Positions 816 to 13,936 of a stretch of DNA of 44,364 nucleotides are shown in pieces (the first letter of the stretch is position 1; every line of letters begins with the position of its first letter). A model generated the notes under the pieces. The model did not search any database. It was given only the letters and a program-made list of their open reading frames with translations, and was not told where the DNA came from. Location of the stretch: contig JAJZQU010000002.1 in the NCBI GenBank assembly GCA_021806685.1, forward strand, positions 1-44,364, given 5' to 3'. The DNA comes from a bacterium. Lineage in GTDB: Bacteria > Patescibacteriota > Patescibacteriia > 2-12-FULL-60-25. The translations under genes and the position numbers were made by a program.

Positions 816-1967
816 TTACAAAACTCCCTCTTCAATCCCCTTCCTAATCCTAGCCATCAGCTCTAGATAAAACTTGATATTAATCAAAGTCGCCAGGCGG
901 TAGCCAAGCATTTCTTGCACGTCAAAAAGATGGTGAAGATAGCCATAGGTGTAACGGGAGAGCTCATTAATTTGCTCCGCAGATTCCTCGCCTTCGCTCG
1001 GAATGACGGGGGTGACGAGAGGGGTTTGATCGTTGGCAAACTTGGCGTTGGTGATGTGGATGGTTTCGTAAAAATCAGGCTTGGTCAGGTCGTCGTGGAC
1101 AAAGCGATAAAGCAAACCGTGGCGGGCATTGCGGCTGGGGAGGACGCAATCCATCATGTCTATGCCGCGTTGGACATAGGCAACGATTTCGTGAGGCTTG
1201 GCGCCGCCCATGAAATAACGAGGTTTATCGGCAGGCAAGACAGGGTGCAAGGCATCCAAAACGCGGCAAGAATCTTCAAACGGCTCGCCAACTGAAAGGC
1301 CGCCAATGGCATAACCGTCAAAACCGATTTGTTTGAGGTCATTGGCGTGCTTGATACGCAGGTCGACATTGGTGGCTCCTTGGTTGATTCCAAACAACAT
1401 CGCACCCGGATTATTCGATGAACCAAGGTTTTGTTCAAAATGTTCTTTCGAGCGCTGAGCCCAACGGACAGTACGATCAACAGAAGTGTTCAATGTCTCT
1501 TGGTCATAATGAGGCGGGGTACACTCATCCAAAACCATGACAATATCACTCCCCAAAGCCTGTTGGATTTCCATTGATTTTTCCGGTGTCAGCATGTGCT
1601 TTGAGCCGTCAATATGCGAGGCAAACTCAGCCCCCTCCTCCGTTATCTTGCGACGTTCGGCTAACGAGAAGACTTGGTAGCCGCCGGAGTCAGTCAGGAT
1701 CGGGCCATGCCAATCCATGAGCTTATGCAGGCCGCCAAAAGCCCGTATGACATCAATGCCAGGCTTGAGATAAAGATGATAGGTGTTGGAAAGCAAGATC
1801 TCGGCTCCCAGCTTTTCCATGTCCAACGATGACAGGGTTTTGACCGCGCCCTTGGTCGCAATCGGCATAAAAAACGGCGTCTGGATTTCTCCATGCGCCG
1901 TCTTTAAAACTCCCCGCCGTGCGGACGAGACTGAGGAGGTTTTTTGGATGTTTAGGCCATTCGACAT
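816..1967 (-). CDS. tgt: tRNA-guanine transglycosylase (Tgt) lacking its zinc site
   Basis: Tgt exchanges guanine-34 of GUN-anticodon tRNAs for a queuine precursor. The 383-residue protein carries the family hallmarks: LTDSGGYQVFSL with the general-base Asp at 93, FGINQG near 192, GYAIGGLSVGEP near 219, and MDCVLPSRNARHG with the nucleophile Asp at 273. Known bacterial enzymes then have a CxCxxC motif and, about 25 residues later, a His, which together bind zinc. Here all three Cys are missing and the His position is Ile-362. The Cys region is replaced by VIPSEGEES (321-329) in a loop about 10 residues longer than in E. coli Tgt. The DNA coding this loop matches the dispersed repeat found at 1973-2061 and 13854-13936. 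The gene follows a membrane-protein gene and precedes a UvrD-type helicase on the same strand. The catalytic core looks intact; activity without zinc is uncertain. Confidence 0.93.
   Translation of the reverse strand: MSNGLNIQKTSSVSSARRGVLKTAHGEIQTPFFMPIATKGAVKTLSSLDMEKLGAEILLSNTYHLYLKPGIDVIRAFGGLHKLMDWHGPILTDSGGYQVFSLAERRKITEEGAEFASHIDGSKHMLTPEKSMEIQQALGSDIVMVLDECTPPHYDQETLNTSVDRTVRWAQRSKEHFEQNLGSSNNPGAMLFGINQGATNVDLRIKHANDLKQIGFDGYAIGGLSVGEPFEDSCRVLDALHPVLPADKPRYFMGGAKPHEIVAYVQRGIDMMDCVLPSRNARHGLLYRFVHDDLTKPDFYETIHITNAKFANDQTPLVTPVIPSEGEESAEQINELSRYTYGYLHHLFDVQEMLGYRLATLINIKFYLELMARIRKGIEEGVL
981..1007 (-). repeat. fragment of the dispersed palindromic repeat inside tgt
   Basis: Read on the tgt coding strand, the sequence runs GTCATTCCGAGCGAAGGCGA then GGAATCT. 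It matches the outer end of the repeat units at 1973-2061 and 13854-13936 (GTCATTCCGAG, then a variable stretch, then CGAGGAATCT). It codes for nine residues exactly where other Tgt proteins hold the zinc-binding cysteines. The reading frame is kept. The match is seen directly; insertion as the cause is inferred. Confidence 0.75.
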
Positions 1968-1972
1968 AATTT

Positions 1973-2061
1973 GTCATTCCGAGGGAGTCCGACGAGTCGA
2001 GGAATCTTAGTTAACGAAGATTTCTCCACTCCGTCGCCTTCGCTCCTTCGGTCGAAATGAC
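1973..2061. repeat. dispersed palindromic repeat, copy 1
   Basis: This 89-base intergenic element starts GTCATTCCGAG and ends CTTCGGTCGAAATGAC. It is roughly palindromic around a central GTTAAC, with flanks reading AATCTTA and CGAAGATT. It lies between the membrane-protein gene and the tgt start codon, 5 bases from the ATG. It codes for nothing and has no transposase, so it resembles a MITE- or REP-like element. The same element lies in inverted orientation at 13854-13936. Confidence 0.85.
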
Positions 2062-2071
2062 ACCCAACTGG

Positions 2072-3640
2072 TTAGGGTTGTAACTCGTCTTTCTTTTCCT
2101 TGGCAAAAGCAAACCACTCTTCGAGCAAGGACAGGAAAAACTTATAAGGGGCTTCGAAAATAAAGTCGAAGAAAAACAGGAAGATATTGATGCGGCTGAT
2201 TGATTGCGACAAGAAGCGCCCGGCTTGCAGGATGGGAATTGAGAAGAAGTCTACCAATGAATTCCAAAGCGTAACTTTGCCGTCCATAACAACAATCTCA
2301 CGTGCGCCCATGCGCAAACGGTAAGCAAAGAAGCTCACCAAACACAGGAATAGAATGAAGATCAAAGTGGAAATCCAGGTGAAAGACATCTTACCCAATA
2401 TCAAGGCAATCAAGCCAAAGGTAACGATGAAGGTAAAGGCATAAACCAAAGTCAACACCGTGGTGGCAAAAGCGCTCCTCGGCCGCGGGGCAACAATAGT
2501 CTTAATGGTGGGCTGTTGGTCACCAACCAACTCCTCAGCTGCCAGCAAAATGCGTTCCGTATTGTCATAACTGGGCAAACGGATAAACAAGCCAACCATA
2601 AACATGATGAACGGCGGGAAAAGCAAATTGATCAGCAAGGCTTCGAAATGCAAAACCTGGTAAGAATACCATTCAATAGGCACTTCAAGCACCAAGGCCA
2701 AAATCATTTTGGTTAGCAATAAGTACAACATGGCCCTGATCGTACCGCGCCTTAACCGGGCTTTGACCGCCGCATAACGTTCCTCGATGTGGTTAGACAA
2801 AGCAGCTTTCAATACCTCTGGCTTATCAATCATGGCCGGAGCCTCAGCCGGTTTCTTGGTCAATGTCTCAGTCATCATGTTGAGCGAGACTGCCCAAGGC
2901 TTAACTGCTTTTTGGAACCTCTGTGATAGCGAATACTTAAGCTGGCGCTTAATGCGTTGTTCAACTGCCACCAAACGTTCGGCTATGGGGCGCGGGTTTT
3001 CCATCCAAGACTGCGGGCTCATCCACTCAGGCAAATAAGCCCGCAAAAGTTTATAACCGATGATTTCGTCGTCAGCCTTAATCAACGTACGGTAACAAGC
3101 CACGTATATCTGGAGACGCAATTCATAATCATCCAAGGCAGCACCACGGACTTTAACGGAATGCCTGATACGGTCGAATAAGAAAGAGACCAGGGCTTTT
3201 TCGCGCGTGGCGTCAACTAGAATATCTTCAATTTCCACGGCAGCCATTGTCCTTAACCATTCATTATGATTTTCAGAACCTGCATTAACCTTCAAAACCA
3301 ACTGCAGCTTATACATGATCCAGGCCGTGCTATCTATCAAACCGACAGGCAAAGCCCCATTTTGCAGGTAACGGGCGGCAATTAACTCGCGAATCAGCTG
3401 TTCGGCCATGACCCGAGGGTCCTGCTCCAATAAAAGCTGCCTTTTTAGGATACGCAAGATAGCTGACTTGCGGATCAGGTGCTCATCTTTGTAATCAACC
3501 AGGTTACGGATTTTCTCGTAAAAAAACGCAAAACGGCTAACTGCCGCATGGACAGTTATCCTATCCTCATCTTCTTTAATTTTTGGCTTATTTGAGCCTA
3601 AAATTTCCAGTATAAGCCGACCGTTTTTTGTTAGAGGCAT
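2072..3640 (-). CDS. multi-pass membrane protein of unknown function
   Basis: I do not recognise this 522-residue protein. The first 300 or so residues are soluble, helical and charged. Residues about 300-450 hold several hydrophobic segments (LYLLLTKMILALVLEV, LLFPPFIMFMVGLFI, VLTLVYAFTFIVTFGLIALIL, LIFILFLCLVSFFAYRL). A further hydrophobic, Phe-rich amphipathic stretch lies near the C-terminus. A weak extended -10 (TGGTAGTCT, 3663-3671) lies about 23 bases upstream of the ATG. The gene is followed by repeat copy 1 and tgt on the same strand, so it probably heads that transcription unit. Its layout suggests an envelope protein with a large cytoplasmic N-terminus; function is unknown. Confidence 0.85.
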   Translation of the reverse strand: MPLTKNGRLILEILGSNKPKIKEDEDRITVHAAVSRFAFFYEKIRNLVDYKDEHLIRKSAILRILKRQLLLEQDPRVMAEQLIRELIAARYLQNGALPVGLIDSTAWIMYKLQLVLKVNAGSENHNEWLRTMAAVEIEDILVDATREKALVSFLFDRIRHSVKVRGAALDDYELRLQIYVACYRTLIKADDEIIGYKLLRAYLPEWMSPQSWMENPRPIAERLVAVEQRIKRQLKYSLSQRFQKAVKPWAVSLNMMTETLTKKPAEAPAMIDKPEVLKAALSNHIEERYAAVKARLRRGTIRAMLYLLLTKMILALVLEVPIEWYSYQVLHFEALLINLLFPPFIMFMVGLFIRLPSYDNTERILLAAEELVGDQQPTIKTIVAPRPRSAFATTVLTLVYAFTFIVTFGLIALILGKMSFTWISTLIFILFLCLVSFFAYRLRMGAREIVVMDGKVTLWNSLVDFFSIPILQAGRFLSQSISRINIFLFFFDFIFEAPYKFFLSLLEEWFAFAKEKKDELQP

Positions 3641-13853: not shown

Positions 13854-13936
13854 GTCATTTCGACCGAAACGTAGTGGAGTGGAGAAATCTTCGTTAACTA
13901 AGATTCCTCGACTCATTGCTACTCGCTCGGAATGAC
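13854..13936. repeat. dispersed palindromic repeat, copy 2
   Basis: This 83-base element is the reverse complement of the unit at 1973-2061. Both share GTCATTCCGAG, CGAGTCGAGGAATCTTAG, TTAACGAAGATTTCTCCACT and TTCGGTCGAAATGAC. The main difference is the stretch between the outer ends and the core. It lies between the permease gene and the DUF5666-like gene, inside what looks like one transcription unit. Confidence 0.85.

Follow-up and report, generated by a model that had tools for sequence, protein, structure and literature searches.

Bacterial tRNA-guanine transglycosylases (Tgt) hold a structural zinc through three cysteines and one histidine. The zinc subdomain has been named as one of two hallmarks of TGT enzymes (PMC6165067), and in the Tgt of Zymomonas mobilis, Cys158 and Val233 set the specificity for preQ1 (PMC3660597). 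A tRNA enzyme can do without such a metal, as in GluRS the zinc-binding domain persists in natural metal-free homologues and zinc is dispensable there (PMC4381286). For dispersed repeats that enter genes, the nearest described elements are the Rickettsia palindromic elements (RPEs) found inside genes for proteins (Ogata 2000 and 2002), which a review gives as about 150 bp long, with nearly half of their copies inside ORFs (PMC10969869). In the open-access literature, we found no description of a zinc-free Tgt, though an earlier one is possible, and nothing relevant on in-frame repeats in Patescibacteria or on the sequence of the repeat reported here.

The window (the whole stretch of 44,364 nucleotides that we analyzed) carries tgt on the minus strand at 816-1967, encoding a protein of 383 residues. 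This protein scored 420.8 bits against TIGR00430, a curated equivalog whose cut-off of 306.75 is thereby exceeded, and 435.6 bits against PF01702. Alignment with solved Tgts revealed that D93, Y97, D147, C149, V226, and D273 are all in place, with both the GGLSVGE and DCVLPSRNARHG blocks kept. Asp93 (codon at 1689-1691, minus strand; the active-site Asp102 of Z. mobilis), Asp147, and Asp273 (codon at 1149-1151, minus strand; the catalytic nucleophile, Asp280 of Z. mobilis) were invariant across a 67-sequence alignment, while Cys149 and Val226 are the counterparts of Cys158 and Val233 in Z. mobilis Tgt. None of the four zinc ligands is present. The CxCxxC motif is missing, its cysteines are limited to C149, C234, and C274, with none in the C-terminal subdomain, and two ligand positions are occupied by Leu336 (codon at 960-962, minus strand), which aligns with the third zinc cysteine, and Ile362 (codon at 882-884, minus strand), which aligns with the histidine that is the fourth ligand. 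The former cysteine loop has 21 residues, compared to 11 in zinc-type Tgts. An earlier note had read from the DNA a complete catalytic core, the absence of CxCxxC with Ile-362 at the histidine position, and a loop about 10 residues longer than in E. coli Tgt. Thus, profile scores and alignment confirm an intact bacterial Tgt without a zinc site. Since the hallmark zinc feature (PMC6165067) is absent, we file the protein as a zinc-free variant and not as a typical member. A plasmid search with the tgt locus gave no match.

We determined how widely the site is missing, using genomes that are apparently metagenome assemblies and mostly fragmented (the window's own genome is 85% complete). In the family-level lineage to which the window belongs (f1), CxCxxC and the zinc histidine were found in 0 of 36 Tgts, with or without inserts; one of them (L037) has one single cysteine in the loop. 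Across the class, with f1 oversampled, the full C-C-C-H set was present in 70 of 157 Tgts and incomplete in 87, and in a wider sample of other classes of the phylum it was missing from 10 of 63 Tgts. A Tgt tree built without the loop columns and the histidine column placed the 36 f1 Tgts in a single clade (99*), while the nearest neighbors (f45, f15, and f37) keep C-C-C-H. By parsimony, the zinc-site state changed at least 9-13 times on the class tree, with 9 changes forced by well-supported branches; shuffled labels gave 54.6 changes, compared to 13 for the real labels. In five Tgts of the class survey (L137, L276, L283, L284, and L291) the cysteines are gone and the zinc histidine is kept. 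These may be intermediates, and the existence of such histidine-only proteins as L137, L276, and L283 suggests that cysteines are usually lost before the histidine.

So many separate losses within one class, together with the 10 Tgts of other classes, could mean that selection favored loss as a way for reduced, host-dependent cells to spare zinc, instead of loss arising by drift. We regard this as an unlikely account, since f1 genomes retain the zinc ribbon of uS14 (intact in 18 of 18 genomes with a match) and roughly half of the class members surveyed keep the Tgt zinc site. As the ribbon is kept, the change in Tgt is not part of a general abandonment of zinc by the lineage, an idea that we rejected for uS14.

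The losses converge on particular residues at the old ligand positions. At the position of the third cysteine, leucine is found in 34 of 36 f1 Tgts and in 43 of the 51 other zinc-free Tgts. The histidine position holds valine, alanine, isoleucine, or methionine in 32 of 36 f1 Tgts and asparagine in 39 of the other 51. This convergence on leucine plus an aliphatic residue or asparagine suggests that a contact without metal has formed where the zinc was bound, and in f1 a hydrophobic contact between Leu336 and Ile362 probably stands in for zinc. A metal might instead still be bound through other residues, such as H291, D292, H304, H345, and H346, as histidines abound in the C-terminal part and a large share of the lineage keeps the HDD and [HR]H motifs. 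We consider this improbable. The subdomain is without any cysteine, and in many separate losses the ligand positions changed to leucine and to aliphatic residues or asparagine, not to alternative ligands. Moreover, the [HR]H pair also occurs in zinc-type Tgts, and is therefore not a new metal site. The window protein is thus likely to be free of zinc.

Despite this loss, the gene appears to be maintained. For the body of Tgt, dN/dS between the window and its relatives was 0.042 (G004), 0.062 (G001), and 0.071 (G002), values that indicate strong purifying selection on tgt. Nearly all relatives have one Tgt per genome. QueA, the next enzyme of the pathway, was found in the window's own genome in two pieces, with matches on C45 and C15 of G000, and in 30 of the 33 other lineage genomes searched. 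Modeling of the fold, proposed as a check in the earlier note, predicted the TIM barrel of Tgt: the AlphaFold monomer model reached a pLDDT of 94.2 and superposed on Z. mobilis Tgt with a TM score of 0.86-0.91. The only 10-residue block with pLDDT below 80 (residues 321-330) is the loop coded by a repeat, where confidence is low partly because no other sequence aligns there; the equivalent loop of a zinc-keeping relative (L221) was modeled at a pLDDT of at least 94.

A missing hallmark feature (PMC6165067) and an untidy insert could also be signs that activity has been lost or changed, either in a decaying gene or in a non-catalytic partner of the QTRT2 type. This is very improbable given the purifying selection, the invariance of the catalytic and preQ1-type residues, the single Tgt in nearly every relative, and the presence of QueA in the window's genome and in most relatives. 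A pseudogene was rejected on dN/dS and the presence of QueA. The window Tgt is probably catalytically active.

To the extra length of the loop, a repeat contributes about a dozen residues. A 36-bp dispersed repeat unit lies in frame in tgt at 974-1009 (minus strand), coding for about residues 320-331. The unit is matched at 36/36 positions in the sister genome G004 (L193) and at 35/36 at two places in the window's own genome (L195 and L198), whereas chance would yield about 4e-14 matches of at least 35/36. No ORF of at least 100 codons crosses the own-genome copies that we checked. Its 27-bp core at 981-1007, picked out in the earlier note, reads GTCATTCCGAGCGAAGGCGAGGAATCT on the minus strand, codes for VIPSEGEES, and has 27/27 copies at G000:C57:10935 in the own genome and at G004:C2:21362 and G004:C9:20420 in the sister genome; a reversed control pattern gave 0 matches. 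These exact copies uphold the claim that a fragment of a dispersed repeat went into tgt in frame. The core had also been matched to a longer, 89-bp palindromic repeat at 1973-2061 and 13854-13936, and here the claim fails: the match to the copy at 1973-2061 is loose (77% over 26 nt), and we rejected an origin as a piece of that palindrome in favor of the separate 36-bp unit. From the match between copies, the insert is a short dispersed element whose left arm is common to the 89-bp repeat.

The insert is younger than the loss of the site. The closest relatives (L025-L053) are without the window's 36-bp repeat and already without zinc ligands, and among them L027, whose Tgt is 84% identical to the window's, is zinc-free with a short loop. 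The insert is also missing in a relative with 93% Tgt identity, and most f1 Tgts are zinc-free with no repeat detected in the loop. Since all 36 f1 Tgts are zinc-free, most of them have no detected repeat, and their neighbors keep zinc ligands, loss was ancestral to f1 and the insert came late. It is thus scarcely credible that the in-frame insertion itself destroyed the site in the window species, with the enzyme adapting later: the repeat and the former site do share one loop, but zinc-free loops without the repeat in close relatives, such as that of L027, and a tree that puts the loss at the base of the lineage led us to reject it. This was one of two causal orders offered in the earlier note, which had itself named repeat-free relatives of this kind as an observation that would speak against it; the other, that the site decayed and the insert was tolerated later, fits the relatives and the tree, and lineage-wide loss with purifying selection agrees with the accompanying view of a settled zinc-free enzyme and not a fresh mutation.

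We asked if other members of the lineage have inserts at the same place. All 77 zinc-type Tgts have loops of 11-12 residues, and the range is 6-41 in f1 and 7-14 in the other zinc-free Tgts. Inserts of at least 6 residues occur at the loop in 11 of 36 f1 Tgts, compared to 0 of 77 zinc-type and 0 of 51 other zinc-free Tgts (Fisher test, 1e-6 and 2e-5, respectively, with related sequences treated as independent). By the same count, almost no f1 inserts of this size occur elsewhere in Tgt. As the other zinc-free Tgts have none, zinc loss alone is insufficient for inserts to build up.

Six of the 36 f1 Tgts, and probably a seventh, carry repeats of their own genome in the loop, and the repeats differ from genome to genome. 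Besides the 36-bp unit in G000, the window genome, TTCAGCGnAGCGGAnATTC units are present in the loops of G001 (66 sites in the genome) and G004 (10 sites). The G005 loop contains CGAATCT-type repeats of its own genome, the G032 loop contains a palindrome repeated in its own genome, and the loop of L047 (G031) contains the CTCCCCCTTTCGAAGGGGGAG palindrome, with a second copy in its own genome and three in a congener. The weaker, seventh case is G019, where a GGGAGTA-type repeat (9 other sites) lies in a neighboring insert of the same Tgt and degenerate versions of the loop insert (6 mismatches in 30) turned up at three further sites within the 400 kb scanned, against none for a reversed control. 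L025, L026, and L029 carry QRSG-type inserts, which may go back to one insertion or to several. Judged by these counts and copies, the zinc-free loop of f1 is a landing site for repeats belonging to each genome. We infer that the inserts are tolerated rather than functional.

Several related observations concern the repeats themselves and other proteins or loops. TTCAGCGnAGCGGAnATTC is a 16-bp tandem and dispersed family, expanded in G001 and nearly absent from most congeners. Long Tgt inserts are present in another loop, after about residue 292 (window numbering), in L143 (f11), L145 (f13), and L138 (f6), and that of L143 resembles a translated dispersed repeat, KLVPEFVEGQSKFHPLTGSG. The QueA match at C4:35902-37077 of G001 lies in a single 424-aa frame and is split around profile positions 294-297, which suggests an in-frame insert in this enzyme as well.

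A second insertion lies next to tgt. The earlier note had placed a whole repeat copy just before the tgt start, and we find the 89-bp palindromic dispersed repeat there, at 1973-2061 (plus strand), between tgt and the upstream gene. The repeat occurs at about 18 places in the window's own genome; the other copy in the window (13854-13936, minus strand; 83% identity) has a 39-nt perfectly complementary arm. In three relatives (genomes G004, G001, and G002; loci L025, L026, and L027), the upstream gene ends just short of the tgt start codon, by a few nucleotides (CCCTAA-GAC-ATG in G004, for example), and the two genes nearly abut, constituting an empty site without the repeat. At the window junction, the 89-bp repeat and a few flanking bases sit exactly where the genes of relatives nearly meet. 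Since the genes nearly abut in three relatives, the copy at 1973-2061 is a recent insertion, and comparison of filled and empty sites gives two repeat insertions, one in tgt and one at the junction, since the split from the relative with the 93%-identical Tgt. The insertion at the junction possibly affects translation coupling of tgt. The upstream gene (2072-3640, minus strand) encodes a 522-aa protein with no Pfam match, and its neighborhood with tgt is kept in three relatives.

A model that fits the lineage-wide ligand loss, the order of events, the identity of the insert, the purifying selection, and the predicted fold, all established by sequence analysis, is that the window encodes a working Tgt in a settled zinc-free state, with a released loop in which repeat insertions are tolerated; we consider this highly probable. 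The ancestor of f1 would have lost the structural zinc site of three cysteines and one histidine, and a hydrophobic contact would have replaced the metal as the third cysteine became leucine (Leu336) and the histidine an aliphatic residue (Ile362), leaving the TIM barrel, active site, and C-terminal helices intact. Freed from the metal, the CxCxxC loop could then have turned into a surface loop of variable length, where short dispersed repeats of each genome would have landed in frame several times; in the window genome, the 36-bp unit would have landed and added its dozen or so residues. We also favor, with less assurance, a broader reading in which the Tgts of Patescibacteria lost zinc repeatedly and convergently through a Leu-aliphatic or Leu-Asn contact, and the loop of one lineage became a recurrent in-frame landing site through which repeats turn into protein.

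If so, a whole lineage of tiny Patescibacteria would carry out a key tRNA modification with an enzyme that is without the zinc site considered a hallmark of its class, and the disappearance of a metal site would have let repetitive DNA feed the evolution of a loop. Natural losses that arose independently many times, with convergent residues, may show how much the metal contributes and how to engineer it away, and they supply structural studies with zinc-free homologues that already exist. As relatives provide both empty and filled sites, the loop is a rare controlled case of dispersed repeats joining a conserved enzyme.

Compared to described systems, the window protein resembles bacterial Tgt (TIGR00430; Z. 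mobilis, PDB 1PUD) in its predicted TIM barrel, catalytic aspartate pair, preQ1-type Cys/Val, and C-terminal helices. It differs from the Z. mobilis type in having no zinc ligands, in the replacement of the CxCxxC loop by a variable loop with a repeat-coded insert, and in carrying leucine in place of the third ligand and an aliphatic residue in place of the fourth. Like zinc-free bacterial GluRS (PMC4381286), it is a tRNA enzyme from which a structural zinc is absent; however, GluRS is a different enzyme with a different domain, and its zinc was shown to be dispensable, whereas the window Tgt is predicted from sequence and modeling to do without. As with the RPEs (reviewed in PMC10969869), a dispersed repeat (974-1009 in tgt) has gone in frame into a conserved enzyme, and the genome is a reduced one. 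Unlike those elements of about 150 bp, the window insert is a 36-bp unit whose other own-genome copies, where checked, fall outside long ORFs, and the repeat families that have struck this single loop of a single protein, Tgt, differ between species.
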